NCBI RefSeq assembly: GCF_900102795.1
Contig: NZ_FMWG01000005.1
Location: forward strand, 124,001-188,000
Origin: Epibacterium ulvae
Lineage (GTDB): Bacteria > Pseudomonadota > Alphaproteobacteria > Rhodobacterales > Rhodobacteraceae
Direction of reading: 5' to 3'
DNA length: 64,000 bases
Below are positions 49,867 to 62,412 of this stretch, in pieces. The position numbers and the translations under genes were made by a program. Within the stretch, counting starts at the first letter, position 1. The number at the start of each line of letters is the position of its first letter. Under the pieces are notes generated by a model. It searched no databases and was not told where the DNA came from. It worked only from the letters and a program-made list of their open reading frames with translations.

Positions 49867-50937
49867 TTAGGCCATACCACCCTCAACCAGGCCTCTGGCA
49901 ATCTGCGCATAGGCCTGCGCCATTGCTCCTTCACCTGCCGCTATGGGAGTTCCGCTGTCACCAGCCAGACGGGTCTCCAGATCGATTGGCAAAGACCCCA
50001 ACAAAGGAACGCCGAGCTTTTCCGCTTCTGCTGCGACACCACCATGCCCAAAGATGTGATGCTCGCTGCCGCAGCTGGGACAGGTAAAGAAGGACATGTT
50101 TTCGATAAGGCCCAAAACCGGGGTTTTAAGGGATTTAAACATATCCAGTGCTTTGCGCGCGTCCAACAGCGCAACATCCTGCGGCGTGCTGACAACAATT
50201 GCGCCGCTCAACTCTGATTTTGTGCAAAGCGTCAACTGCACATCCCCAGTTCCGGGGGGCAGATCAACCAGCAGAACGTCAAGCTCTCCCCAATTCACCT
50301 GACCAATCATCTGCTGCAAGGCCCCCATCAACATAGGGCCACGCCAGACCACGGCTTTATCTTCTTCGACCATAAAGCCGATCGACATCAATGTGACACC
50401 ATGGGAATGTAGGGGTTCAATGATCTTGCCGTCGGGGCTCGCCGGACGCCCACTGGCCCCCATCATGCGCGGCTGACTTGGACCGTAGATATCTGCATCC
50501 AACAAACCAACCTTCCGGCCTTCTTTTGCCAAAGCAACCGCGAGATTGGAGCTTACCGTGGATTTGCCAACGCCCCCCTTGCCAGAGCCGATCGCCAGAA
50601 TGCGCTTTACACCGCTTGGCTTCATCGGGGCGGCCTGAGGTTTGGGATGCCCTCCCACCTTGAGCGATGGCGGCGGCTTTGAAGCAGACTCATTATGCGC
50701 TGTCAGCGCGACATTGACGCTGGTCACCCCCGGCAGCTGCGCAATGCGTTCTTGTGCAGCGAGTCGTAAAGGTTCCATCTGTCGAGCCACTTCAGGGGTC
50801 GGTGCTTCGATGACAAAACTCACACGTCCGTCTTCCACACGCAAAGCGCGGATTAAATCATTGGAAATCAGCGAGCCCTGCCCCGGAAAAGGCAAATCGG
50901 CCAATGCTGCGCGAATCTTATCTTGAATATTGTCCAC
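49867..50937 (-). CDS. mrp: Mrp/NBP35 family iron-sulfur carrier ATPase
   Basis: 356 residues. N-terminal DUF59/MIP18-like domain (RVEDGRVSFVIEAPTPEVA), a variable linker, and the P-loop ATPase with deviant Walker A GSGKGGVGKSTVSSNLA near residue 115, then DADIYGPSQPRMMG and the conserved CPSCG (FTCPSCGSEHHIFG) that binds a bridging [4Fe-4S] cluster. Carries iron-sulfur clusters to apo-proteins in the cytosol. Its upstream gap is shared with the divergent DUF1127 gene. Confidence 0.96.
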   Translation of the reverse strand: MDNIQDKIRAALADLPFPGQGSLISNDLIRALRVEDGRVSFVIEAPTPEVARQMEPLRLAAQERIAQLPGVTSVNVALTAHNESASKPPPSLKVGGHPKPQAAPMKPSGVKRILAIGSGKGGVGKSTVSSNLAVALAKEGRKVGLLDADIYGPSQPRMMGASGRPASPDGKIIEPLHSHGVTLMSIGFMVEEDKAVVWRGPMLMGALQQMIGQVNWGELDVLLVDLPPGTGDVQLTLCTKSELSGAIVVSTPQDVALLDARKALDMFKSLKTPVLGLIENMSFFTCPSCGSEHHIFGHGGVAAEAEKLGVPLLGSLPIDLETRLAGDSGTPIAAGEGAMAQAYAQIARGLVEGGMA

Positions 50938-51218
50938 ACTGCTCTCCTACGTTTCCGCATGTATATTGCGCAGACCTACAAGACCCAAGGCGCGAGTTTC
51001 AATTTGCTGTCACAAATGTCCCATTTTCTGCACATAAATTAAGCAAATCCCTATGCCAACAAGCGACTTAAGAATTTACACGCCTTATCAGCACACCACA
51101 CCCATGCAAGAGTCGCATAGCGGATTTGCCAAAAGGCCGGATTGTGCGCCTGCAGCAAATGCTTATTCTGATTTACAAGAAATAAACGATTTGAAGCGAT
51201 GTTAGAAGATAAGACCTG

Positions 51219-51434
51219 ATGGCAAACGTAGCGCATATCTCTGTAGAAGCTCCTAAGCTTGGCCTTCGCAAGCTTTTCGTTGAGCTCCAGAAGCGCTTCA
51301 AAACCCATCATGTTTATCGGGCGACCCATAACGCCCTTCGAGAGCTGAGCGATCGTGAATTGGCGGATTTAGGCCTAAACCGATCAATGGTTAAACGCGC
51401 TGCACTTGAAGCAGCTTATGGAAGAAATATTTGA
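51219..51434 (+). CDS. DUF1127 small protein heading the cuckoo-RNA operon (CcaF1-like)
   Basis: 71 residues, basic, with the C-terminal DUF1127 signature (ALRELSDRELADLGLNRSMV). In Rhodobacter sphaeroides the DUF1127 protein upstream of the CcsR RNAs (RSP_6037, CcaF1) is reported to bind RNA and influence processing of the sRNAs made from the same transcript. Here the first CCTCCTCCC hairpin begins 8 bases after the stop, the same arrangement. The promoter is not obvious to me; RpoH-type control is known for the homologue but not shown here. The ribosome site before ATG is weak. Confidence 0.9.
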   Translation: MANVAHISVEAPKLGLRKLFVELQKRFKTHHVYRATHNALRELSDRELADLGLNRSMVKRAALEAAYGRNI

Positions 51435-51441
51435 GACAGAG

Positions 51442-51471
51442 CAGGTTCCACCTCCTCCCTTTAGGAACCTG
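51442..51471 (+). ncRNA. Cuckoo RNA hairpin 1
   Basis: 8-bp stem CAGGTTCC (51442-51449) with GGAACCTG (51464-51471); the 14-base loop contains CCTCCTCCCT. Confidence 0.88.
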
Positions 51472-51479
51472 ATCTTAAG

Positions 51480-51511
51480 CGGCAGCATCCTCCTCCTCCC
51501 TGATGCTGTCG
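51480..51511 (+). ncRNA. Cuckoo RNA hairpin 2
   Basis: 10-bp stem (51480-51489 with 51502-51511, one G-U pair; core GCAGCATC/GATGCTGT); the 12-base loop is CTCCTCCTCCCT. Confidence 0.88.
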
Positions 51512-51539
51512 CACCTAATACGGCCACATGGCCAGACAT

Positions 51540-51573
51540 ACACCGGGGCTTCCTCCTCCCTATGCCTTGGTGT
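51540..51573 (+). ncRNA. Cuckoo RNA hairpin 3
   Basis: 10-bp stem ACACCGGGGC (51540-51549) with GCCTTGGTGT (51564-51573), two G-U pairs; the 14-base loop contains CCTCCTCCCT. Confidence 0.88.
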
Positions 51574-51580
51574 CAATAAG

Positions 51581-51621
51581 AACGGTGGCGCTCTCCTCCT
51601 CCCTAGCGCCGCCGTTTTTTT
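51581..51621 (+). ncRNA. Cuckoo RNA hairpin 4, also the terminator
   Basis: 12-bp stem AACGGTGGCGCT (51581-51592) with AGCGCCGCCGTT (51605-51616), one G-U pair; the loop is CTCCTCCTCCCT; seven T follow (51615-51621), making an intrinsic terminator. Confidence 0.9.
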
Positions 51622-51718: not shown

Positions 51719-54079
51719 TTAAAAGGGCACATCATCGCTGGCTGACCCATCCGATTTTACGAACCGTGCCACGACCTTTTTTAGGCCTGCCTTCTCAAAA
51801 TCCACTTCCAGCTTATCGCCTTCGATTCCGACAATCGCGCCGTATCCGAATTTCTGGTGGAACACGCGCTCTCCCAATGTGTAGACCGAAACAGCCTGCA
51901 TATCGATGATGCTACTCTTGCTCTCTTTCGGCTGGCCCATGCCGCGTTGGCCTGCGCGGGCCTGCATACGCTTCCATCCTGGAGAATTGTAACCGTCCGC
52001 CTGTGCAACCCGATCATCAATGGTGGACCGGACAGGCGCAGCGGCTGCACCATATCCACCGCCATACAAACCCGGCGGCGTCAAGACTTCCACGTGTTCT
52101 TCTGGCAGCTCATCCACGAAGCGTGATGGCAATTGCGACTGCCATTGCCCAAAGACGCGGCGATTGCCCGCAAAGGAAATTGTACAGATACGTTCCGCCC
52201 GCGTGATCCCCACATAAGCGAGGCGGCGCTCCTCTTCCAAACCTTTGAGGCCACTTTCGTCCATTGACCGCTGTGAGGGGAACAGACCGTCCTCCCACCC
52301 CGGTAAAAACACAGCAGGAAATTCCAATCCCTTAGCCGCGTGAAGCGTCATAATCGACACTTTCTGTTCGCTGTCTTGCTTGTCGTTGTCCATGACAAGG
52401 CTAACATGTTCCAAAAACCCTTGCAGGTTTTCGAAATTCTCCAACGCCTTCACCAATTCCTTGAGGTTTTCAAGGCGGCCCGGCGCTTCGGGGGTTTTAT
52501 CATTCTGCCACATGGTCGTGTAGCCGCTCTCATCAAGCACCAGTTCGGCAAGCTCCATATGAGAGACATCTTCATCGCCCACCAAGCGCCCCCAACGCTG
52601 CAGGTTTTCCACAAGCAAGCGCAGCTGGCCACCGCCCTTGCCCTTAATGCGACCTTCTTCAACGGCAAGACGTGCCCCCTCCACCAAGGGAACGCCACGT
52701 TCGCGGGCAAGCGCCTGAATGGTTTGCTGCGCCTTGTCTCCAAGTCCACGTTTGGGAGTGTTCACAATACGTTCAAAAGCCAGATCATCATCCGGGCTTA
52801 CGACCATACGGAAGTAGGCCATCGCATCACGGATTTCCAAACGCTCGTAAAAGCGCGGCCCGCCAATCACGCGATAGGGCAAGCCAATAGTCAAAAAGCG
52901 GTCTTCGAATGCGCGCATCTGGTGGGAGGCCCGCACAAGGATTGCCATATCGTTTAGATTGACTGGCTCCAGATGACGCGTGCCACGCTGCAATGCCTCG
53001 ATCTCTTCCCCCGTCCAGCGGGCTTCTTCGTCGCCATCCCAATGACCAATCAGGCGCACCTTTTCACCACCTTCAGATGCCGTCCAAAGCTCTTTACCCA
53101 AACGATCGGAATTGCCACGGATCACATTAGACGCCGCTGCCAGAATATGTTCGGTTGAGCGATAATTCTGTTCCAGACGGACGACCATTGCGCCGGGGAA
53201 ATCCGCTTCAAACCGCAGGATATTTCCAACTTCGGCCCCACGCCATCCATAGATCGATTGGTCATCATCGCCCACGCAGCAGATATTTTGATGGCCGCCC
53301 GCCAAGAGGCGTAGCCAGAGGTATTGAGCGACGTTGGTATCTTGGTATTCGTCCACCATGATATAGCGGAACCAGCGTTGATATTGCTGCAAGATATCTG
53401 CATGTGTTTTGAAGATCGTTACCATATGCAGCAGCAGATCGCCAAAGTCGACCGCGTTCAGTTCTAGCAGGCGTTGCTGATACATCGTATAAAATTCAAT
53501 GCCGCGATTGTTATAAGCTGCGGCCTCACCGGCGGACAAACGATCAGGTGTCAGGGCGCGGTTTTTCCAATCATCGATGATCCCAGCCAGCATACGCGCG
53601 GGCCAGCGCTTGTCGTCAATACCTTCTGCCTTGATCAATTGCTTCAAAAGGCGAATCTGATCATCTGTATCCAGAATTGTAAAATTCGATTTGAGACCAA
53701 CAAGTTCAGCATGACGGCGCAGCAGTTTTACGCAGACCGAATGGAAGGTGCCAAGCCACGGCATGCCTTCAATAGAATGCCCCAGCAATCCACCGACGCG
53801 TTCTTTCATTTCGCGCGCTGCTTTATTCGTAAACGTCACTGCCAGCACTTCATTTGAACGTGCGCGTCCCGTGGTCAAAAGATGCGCAATACGCGCTGTA
53901 AGCGCTTTCGTCTTGCCTGTGCCGGCGCCTGCCAGCATCAGGACAGGCCCATCCAGACATTCAACGGCCTCCCGCTGTGCCGGATTCAATCCGTCCAAAT
54001 AGGGCATTGGGCGTGCAGCCATTGCACGCGAAGACAGGGAAGCGCCTTCAAAGGCATCAAATTCATCGGTCATGCTCAT
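51719..54079 (-). CDS. uvrD: ATP-dependent DNA helicase UvrD/PcrA
   Basis: 786 residues. Superfamily 1A motifs in order: Q motif LNPAQREAVE (31-40), Walker A AGAGTGKTKA (50-59), motif II VDEYQDTN, motif III GDDDQSIYGWRGA, motif IV RLEQNYRST, motif V TLHAAKGLEFPAVF and motif VI YVGITRAERICTIS. A C-terminal Tudor-like tail (GERVFHQKFGYGAIVGIEGD) as in PcrA. 3'-5' helicase for nucleotide excision and mismatch repair. Alternative start at the third codon. Divergent from the FMN enzyme. Confidence 0.97.
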   Translation of the reverse strand: MSMTDEFDAFEGASLSSRAMAARPMPYLDGLNPAQREAVECLDGPVLMLAGAGTGKTKALTARIAHLLTTGRARSNEVLAVTFTNKAAREMKERVGGLLGHSIEGMPWLGTFHSVCVKLLRRHAELVGLKSNFTILDTDDQIRLLKQLIKAEGIDDKRWPARMLAGIIDDWKNRALTPDRLSAGEAAAYNNRGIEFYTMYQQRLLELNAVDFGDLLLHMVTIFKTHADILQQYQRWFRYIMVDEYQDTNVAQYLWLRLLAGGHQNICCVGDDDQSIYGWRGAEVGNILRFEADFPGAMVVRLEQNYRSTEHILAAASNVIRGNSDRLGKELWTASEGGEKVRLIGHWDGDEEARWTGEEIEALQRGTRHLEPVNLNDMAILVRASHQMRAFEDRFLTIGLPYRVIGGPRFYERLEIRDAMAYFRMVVSPDDDLAFERIVNTPKRGLGDKAQQTIQALARERGVPLVEGARLAVEEGRIKGKGGGQLRLLVENLQRWGRLVGDEDVSHMELAELVLDESGYTTMWQNDKTPEAPGRLENLKELVKALENFENLQGFLEHVSLVMDNDKQDSEQKVSIMTLHAAKGLEFPAVFLPGWEDGLFPSQRSMDESGLKGLEEERRLAYVGITRAERICTISFAGNRRVFGQWQSQLPSRFVDELPEEHVEVLTPPGLYGGGYGAAAAPVRSTIDDRVAQADGYNSPGWKRMQARAGQRGMGQPKESKSSIIDMQAVSVYTLGERVFHQKFGYGAIVGIEGDKLEVDFEKAGLKKVVARFVKSDGSASDDVPF

Positions 54080-59845: not shown

Positions 59846-59920
59846 GCGGGCGTAGCTCAGGGGTAGAGCATAACCTTGCCAAGGTTAGGGTCGGGCGTTC
59901 GAATCGCCTCGCCCGCTCCA
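59846..59920 (+). tRNA. tRNA-Gly(GCC), copy 1
   Basis: 75 nt including an encoded CCA. Acceptor stem GCGGGCG with CGCCCGC, D arm GCTCAGGGGTAGAGC, anticodon stem-loop AACCTTGCCAAGGTT with anticodon GCC, T arm GGGCGTTCGAATCGCC. Identical to copies 2 and 3. A copy of the downstream terminator follows. Confidence 0.98.
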
Positions 59921-62015: not shown

Positions 62016-62090
62016 GCGGGCGTAGCTCAGGGGTAGAGCATAACCTTGCCAAGGTTAGGGTCGGGCGTTCGAATCGCCTCGCCCGCTCCA
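62016..62090 (+). tRNA. tRNA-Gly(GCC), copy 2
   Basis: Same 75-nt sequence as copy 1, anticodon GCC, CCA encoded. It lies immediately after the restriction-modification genes. The match with the other copies ends a few bases after CCA (TTTGG), so it lacks the AAGCCG terminator. Confidence 0.98.
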
Positions 62091-62337: not shown

Positions 62338-62412
62338 GCGGGCGTAGCTCAGGGGTAGAGCATAACCTTGCCAAGGTTAGGGTCGGGCGTTCGAATCGCC
62401 TCGCCCGCTCCA
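62338..62412 (+). tRNA. tRNA-Gly(GCC), copy 3
   Basis: Identical 75-nt tRNA. The 26 bases before it match copy 2 exactly, and the bases after it match those after copy 1. The 247-base spacer from copy 2 holds no supported gene. Confidence 0.98.

Follow-up and report, generated by a model that had tools for sequence, protein, structure and literature searches.

A CcaF1-CcsR operon of Epibacterium ulvae with two CcsR-like units and a putative LsrB/VtlR-type LysR box

Three described systems come closest to the locus reported here. In R. sphaeroides, one transcript carries the 71-aa DUF1127 gene ccaF1, the CcsR1-4 RNAs and a Rho-independent terminator, and the available text of the study describes the promoter of this CcaF1-CcsR operon as RpoHI/RpoHII only (PMC10253847). 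RS0680a of the same species has two stem loops (PMC3927594). NfeR1 (alpha-r14) of Sinorhizobium meliloti presents CCUCCUCCC in the loops of differing stems; it has three hairpins and a sigma-70 promoter, PnfeR1, whose LsrB site, TGCA-N6-GCAT, falls between -72 and -60 (PMC10746234). In the VtlR/LsrB regulon of Brucella and Agrobacterium, which takes in AbcR sRNAs and DUF1127 genes, VtlR is a direct activator of abcR1 and atu1667, and the gene order trxB-vtlR is well conserved in Alphaproteobacteria (PMC7486931); that DUF1127 genes are switched on by VtlR is on published record (PMC12595884; atu1667 in PMC7486931).

The window that we analysed, 64,000 nucleotides of Epibacterium ulvae, corresponds to positions 124001-188000 of its contig within a 4.0 Mb genome. 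It holds a CcaF1-like DUF1127 gene of 71 codons at 51219..51434 on the plus strand, whose 71-aa product matches PF06568 at 39.2 bits (cut-off 23.3). Relatives of this protein lie mainly in records named as Rhodobacterales genera, and nine of the 18 genus genomes searched, our own counted, have a DUF1127 match at 1e-12. The genes on either side, for a NUBPL/ParA-type ATPase (49867-50937) and a UvrD-type helicase (51719-54079), are both on the opposite strand, and the DUF1127 operon is therefore a separate transcription unit. Farther along, the window has three co-oriented tRNA-Gly (GCC) genes (59846-59920, 62016-62090 and 62338-62412), lying within 166-nt repeats of which the other copies are 75% and 94% like the first; two open frames stand between the first and second copies.

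Downstream of the DUF1127 gene lies a compact array of hairpins. The window contains four copies of the motif CCTCCTCCCT, all within 51451-51604 (chance expectation 0.07; none of 100 shuffles reaches four), and each copy sits in the loop of a folded plus-strand hairpin: H1 (51438..51475, which has counterparts in congeners), H2 (51479..51512, the more stable of this pair), H3 (51540..51573, recognised by fold and congener comparison) and H4 (51576..51621). The cuckoo-type CCUCCUCCC is accordingly present in all four tandem loops. The 191 nt from 51435 to 51625 fold at -79.4 kcal/mol, with a z score of -7.4. H4 runs into seven T and doubles as an intrinsic terminator; it was absent from our terminator scan because its loop of 12 exceeds the scan's loop limit of 8. 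A preliminary description of this DNA had proposed a DUF1127 gene followed by four stem-loops with a shared loop sequence, the last also serving as terminator, and the PF06568 match, the folds and the T run bear out these points.

Clustering of this kind is confined to the one place. The broader pattern CCTCCTCCC has 20 sites genome-wide and its reversed counterpart has 15. Of the 20, the four in the window alone form a cluster; the other 16 are at background level, some being GGGAGGA start sites read on the other strand, and we rejected them as a second array. Set aside in that judgement was one lone hairpin outside the window, L007 (G000:C18:316023), which has CCTCCTCCCT in its loop and sits after the stop codon of a phasin-like gene (Phasin_2 at 22.5 bits, slightly below the cut-off of 24.9) and ahead of a strong terminator; it may be a second, stand-alone anti-Shine-Dalgarno (aSD) RNA.

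The four hairpins form two units rather than four RNAs. The gaps between neighbouring hairpins in the window are 3, 27 and 2-4 nt, and over all folded loci gap sizes fall into clusters at 0-9 and 22-51 nt. At the long gap a small GC hairpin of four pairs, GGCC-ACAT-GGCC (51522..51533, plus strand), separates units 1 and 2. Among 80 related loci, 68 have one or more scored hairpins close to the match on its downstream side. Two or more motif hairpins are present at 74 loci, the window and its congeners among them, and the motif is in the loop of 417 of the 543 hairpins folded. Of 121 clean two-hairpin units, all but two (119) have their more stable hairpin in second place; some second hairpins are also terminators, and this contributes to their stability. 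Across the same 121 units, arms of the GCGG/GCGA/ACGG type are found in 118 second hairpins and 18 first hairpins. Between units, 83 of the 107 spacers contain a small hairpin of at least five pairs (9.9 on average and 17 at most in shuffles), a threshold that the window's own four-pair hairpin falls below. The Rfam CcsR1 model, 83 nt long, itself spans two hairpins, and it matches the window once per unit, at 51433-51517 (39.7 bits) and 51535-51620 (35.5 bits); in Fuscovulum blasticum (L087), four tandem matches (72.3, 56.1, 38.1 and 51.6 bits) cover eight motif hairpins. RS0680a, with its two stem loops, we take to be the present-day CcsR1. Since both this RNA and the model span are two-hairpin structures, the array is two CcsR-like RNAs, not the four hairpin RNAs of the preliminary description, and an assignment of the hairpins one by one to CcsR1-4 is ruled out. 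The cassette anatomy, with a small, a weak and a strong hairpin, corrects how copies get counted.

We identify the locus as a new CcaF1-CcsR operon (cuckoo RNA, CIN1), a published kind, and file it by anatomy rather than under RF02791: aSD loops in all four hairpins, two hairpins per unit, and a position directly 3' of a short DUF1127 gene. The Rhodobacterales cuckoo layout first suggested for it thus holds. The covariance search proposed at that stage returned the two matches given above, one per unit, but both are below the RF02791 (CcsR1) gathering score of 65.3, and RF02344 (ar14), at 43.2 bits, likewise stays below its gathering score of 58.8 in the window. Three congener loci score 34.5-45.6 bits with the CcsR1 model, and the gathering score is reached by four of the 16 relatives' loci searched. 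The likeness to R. sphaeroides ccaF1-CcsR extends to the 71-aa DUF1127 gene, the tandem CcsR-like RNAs with two aSD hairpins each, and the terminator. The window differs in having two units where R. sphaeroides has four CcsR, in stems diverged enough to keep the CcsR1 model below its gathering score, and in a putative LysR box, which the description available for the R. sphaeroides operon lacks. With NfeR1 the window shares the CCUCCUCCC loops and the TGCA-N6-GCAT box, whereas NfeR1 differs in its three hairpins and sigma-70 promoter and is, to our knowledge, a stand-alone sRNA with no DUF1127 gene in its transcript. The VtlR/LsrB regulon offers a related box and, in the published accounts available, a LysR protein that activates both DUF1127 genes and sRNAs; in that regulon the proteins and the sRNAs come from genes of their own, and in the window both are part of one operon.

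Comparison within the genus indicates what is conserved in the array. Seven of the eight congener loci have the same four hairpins, and L153 has three detected; we aligned the seven with the window, excluding L153. The hairpins can be traced one by one through the congeners by stem type and are orthologous within the genus, and therefore the array is older than the species compared. It had been claimed that the stems share nothing; this does not hold, because arm types recur by hairpin position and each hairpin is individually recognisable across congeners. Invariant columns make up 29 of 36 in the loop motif, 51 of 96 in stems and 11 of 51 in spacers, so that the loop motif is the most conserved part, a comparison the preliminary description had called for. 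Changes on both sides are seen in nine of 47 pairs (shuffle mean 4.2; one of 500 shuffles reaches nine). Paired cells amount to 85.3%, against a shuffle mean of 81.5% (none of 500 shuffles reach the observed value) and at most 51.9% for slid versions, the latter comparison being biased in favour of the structure because it was taken from the window. H2 is paired in all 88 cells of the eight aligned rows, with three pairs altered on both sides, and pairing is weaker in H1 (58 of 87 cells) and H3 (63 of 80). As judged from this alignment, the stems are maintained by structure. The earlier idea that they were kept by structure only thus stands as regards the two-sided changes and is too strong as regards the recurring arm types.

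These data also bear on a cis-acting role, in which the hairpins would mainly stabilise the 3' end of the DUF1127 mRNA and terminate it, rather than act as RNAs in trans. The hairpins do lie in the 3' UTR adjoining the stop codon, with a terminator at the end, but such a role has no need of a conserved CCUCCUCCC loop, and it is the loop motif columns that are the array's most conserved; the aSD loops of NfeR1, moreover, regulate ntrB in trans (PMC10746234). We regard a mainly cis-acting array as very improbable, and read the hairpins as probable trans-acting CcsR-like RNAs.

The proposal that the array grew by copying followed by stem drift fits other lineages and not the recent history of this genus. 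Whole units have been copied in those lineages, as near-identical hairpins at a spacing of 107-119 nt in L038, L048, L053 and L078 show. In our family census, at least one motif pair 25-55 nt apart was counted in 218 of 295 genomes, a raw count that stands beside untotalled control columns. Two relatives have very long arrays, with 25 motif pairs counted in G165:C1 from 334949 and 13 in G272:C782 from 59908 (each coordinate being the first listed place); both are built from repeats of about 140 nt with three hairpins each, another copying unit than the usual two hairpins.

Upstream of the DUF1127 gene we find a putative RpoH-type core promoter (51142..51168, plus strand), with TTG at 51142-51144 and CTTATTC at 51162-51168, from which transcription would start near 51177. 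It is preceded by a putative LsrB/VtlR-type LysR box, TGCAAGAGTCGCAT, of the form TGCA-N6-GCAT (51105..51118, plus strand), at about -72 to -59. Both belong to a conserved promoter block: the upstream regions of most of the 34 relatives aligned show TATGCANNNGCTGCATAGCAGCATTG and then ATTGTGCANNYGCAGCATNNRCCTATNT, the left half of the box being degenerate in the Shimia loci. TTG and CTAT features are known for RpoHI/RpoHII promoters (PMC3441632); the window and its relatives have conserved TTG and CTTAT/CCTAT elements, with a spacing about 1 nt off that description. The strict core-promoter pattern is present in 34 of the 69 array loci, by which we mean loci with at least two CCTCCTCC within 60-1300 nt downstream, a definition that admits weak cases such as L056, L068 and L100. 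We discarded a wider promoter-pattern tally (261 of 390 genomes), many of whose listed matches resemble coding sequence.

The box is a new observation here, and it stands at a fixed distance from the core promoter. We scored the box together with a TTG 35-39 nt downstream of its first base. Exact matches were found at 38 of the 69 array loci, matches with up to one mismatch at 58, and with up to two at 68; in a control stretch 1.35-1.8 kb upstream the corresponding counts are 2, 2 and 5 of 68, and shuffled upstream regions give a mean of 0.00 loci exact and 0.30 within one mismatch. The exact composite is thus missing at 31 of the 69, and some relatives have a box with a degenerate left half. 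In the window the box is exact with the TTG at 37 nt, a box is at the equivalent place in all eight congener loci, and of the 25 loci having both stricter patterns, 24 keep a box-to-TTG distance of 36 or 37 nt. A looser count, of exact TGCA-N6-GCAT anywhere in the 450 nt upstream (58 of 69), was set aside, 20 of the 58 being core-promoter look-alikes; its control loci with an exact box are L068 and L089, where the downstream stretch misses most of the scored hairpins, and their control boxes may be true boxes.

Among the 11 array-less loci, the box with TTG is exact at four and within one mismatch at seven. Because it precedes array-less DUF1127 genes as well, the box tracks DUF1127 genes and not strictly arrays. 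Four of these genes (L054, L063, L080 and L082) keep the exact box and the TTG distance, as if they had lost the RNA part or had never acquired it.

By its letters and position, the window box is the same in motif and place as the LsrB site of PnfeR1 (PMC10746234); counted from the predicted start, TGCA-N6-GCAT lies at about -72 to -59, within the stretch near -72 to -57 where an LsrB/VtlR regulon member would carry it. The Brucella VtlR motif (published in PMC12595884), read on the other strand, is found with up to two mismatches at 51 of the 69 loci (control 2 of 68), and it is poorly kept in the window itself, with five mismatches of 15. The genome contains 10 exact copies of an extended box, TGCA-N6-GCATAGC; three of these copies precede DUF1127 genes (in the window and on C17 and C20), and a one-mismatch site precedes a fourth on C10. 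The chance of three DUF1127-linked sites is about 1.4e-8; leaving out the window, which was the source of the pattern, two of nine sites remain (P 5.7e-6). The boxed DUF1127 genes outside the window are L022 (C20:395386), L025 (C17:63314) and L026 (C10:6205), and at all three a TTG stands 37 nt after the palindrome. It is as if a single regulator served several DUF1127 genes.

A candidate binder is encoded at G000:C25:57432-58292. Queried with the trxB-linked LysR of Microvirga, our genome gives 52 matches, the top one with 48% identity and 276 bits and the next with 126; across four Rhodobacterales genomes there is one outstanding match in each (263-278 bits, next 117-126). In the reverse search of Microvirga, the trxB-linked LysR comes first with 274 bits, ahead of a paralogue with 254. 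By this reciprocal best match, made with the Microvirga LysR only, the genome clearly holds an LsrB/VtlR-like protein and putative LsrB/VtlR orthologue. We had also looked to trxB synteny to support orthology, which failed, and used reciprocal best matches instead: unlike in the VtlR/LsrB regulon, the trxB-vtlR neighbourhood is not found here, there being no LysR gene among ORFs of at least 120 aa in the 3.9 kb surrounding trxB, whose neighbour is Lrp/AsnC-like as recognised by eye. A section heading of PMC11975290 calls LsrB an LTTR unique to Rhizobiales; our sequence match speaks against this, unless it marks a close sister of LsrB.

A possible objection is that the RpoH-type promoter alone drives the operon, and that the palindrome serves another LysR-type or an unrelated regulator such as OxyR. 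The R. sphaeroides operon is described, in the text available, with an RpoHI/RpoHII promoter only (PMC10253847), the window's core promoter has the TTG and CTTAT element, and the 52 LysR-query matches make for many candidate binders. But the box equals the PnfeR1 LsrB site in motif and place, it precedes three other DUF1127 genes at an equal TTG distance, and activation of DUF1127 genes by VtlR has been published (PMC12595884; atu1667, PMC7486931). We consider this objection unlikely, if by no means negligible, to be right. With considerable confidence we prefer to read the locus as a CcaF1-CcsR operon with an RpoH-type promoter and an LsrB/VtlR-like activator, whose two CcsR-like RNAs act on GGAGG-type sites.

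Under this preferred reading, the palindrome at 51105-51118 would be the site from which the LsrB/VtlR-like LysR protein most likely activates the RpoH-type core promoter. A single transcript from about 51177 would comprise the DUF1127 mRNA with the two two-hairpin RNAs as its 3' UTR, and cleavage in the spacer with the small GC hairpin would yield two CcsR-like RNAs of about 75-85 nt each, probably assisted by the DUF1127 protein, by analogy with CcaF1 in R. sphaeroides. Each loop would present CCUCCUCCCU and pair with ribosome-binding sites resembling AGGGAGGAGG, and genes that have such sites, chiefly those for transporter binding proteins, would be translated less. Loci of the CcaF1-CcsR kind are characterised by RNase E processing, aided by their DUF1127 protein, and by induction under stress; a role in stress may be supposed for the RNAs of the window.

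The genome has 65 places of the form GGGAGGA-N3-11-ATG, against 13 for the reversed pattern. One is the other strand of the array itself and was left out; the remaining 64 were read, and 41 have open frames of at least 80 codons. Of these ORFs 40 were scanned with Pfam (L233 was left out), and 18 encode solute-binding proteins (SBP_bac_1, DctP, TctC, Peripla_BP_4). A control Shine-Dalgarno set, AAGGAGGA, comprises 14 ORFs, of which 10 were scanned; three are binding proteins, one of them from an NMT1-like family that we presume to count as such. The difference between the sets is not significant (18 of 40 vs 3 of 14, Fisher P 0.20). Among 155 background ORFs, 23 look signal-like under a crude rule for signal peptides. 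The list of solute-binding proteins is one of candidate targets, drawn from start-site matches; it is in line with NfeR1, for which ABC-transporter targets are reported (PMC10746234).

The same numbers might instead mean that the loops have a weak affinity for the GGAGG of many mRNAs and damp translation as a whole during stress, with no discrete targets. GGGAGGA start sites are numerous (65), binding proteins are also present among the control Shine-Dalgarno genes (three of 10 scanned), and the loop presumably resembles the 16S 3' end. Yet CCC is kept after CCUCCU, so that pairing extends to GGGAGG and not to AAGGAGG, which is the ribosome's own preference, and NfeR1 has a confirmed discrete target, ntrB (PMC10746234). 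Such global slowing seems to us improbable. We continue to favour discrete targets, and the suggestion that the loop masks the ribosome sites of many genes is plausible.

A single search of the LysR/VtlR/LsrB literature, mostly without subscription papers, found no mention of CcsR. On balance we lean towards a broader proposal, that an LsrB/VtlR-type LysR protein controls a DUF1127 regulon including the cuckoo RNAs in Rhodobacterales as it does in Rhizobiales. The wiring from LysR to DUF1127 to aSD RNA would then be ancestral to both orders, and Rhodobacterales would have fused protein and RNAs in one operon, with a cassette made of a small GC hairpin, a weak aSD hairpin and a strong one. If this is true, CcaF1-CcsR, NfeR1 and VtlR-DUF1127, which have been described separately, become one system. 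The shared box provides a direct and cheap test of whether one LysR protein stands over DUF1127 proteins and CCUCCUCCC RNAs across Alphaproteobacteria. The LysR link would bring redox or nutrient input to an operon hitherto described with RpoH sigma factors.
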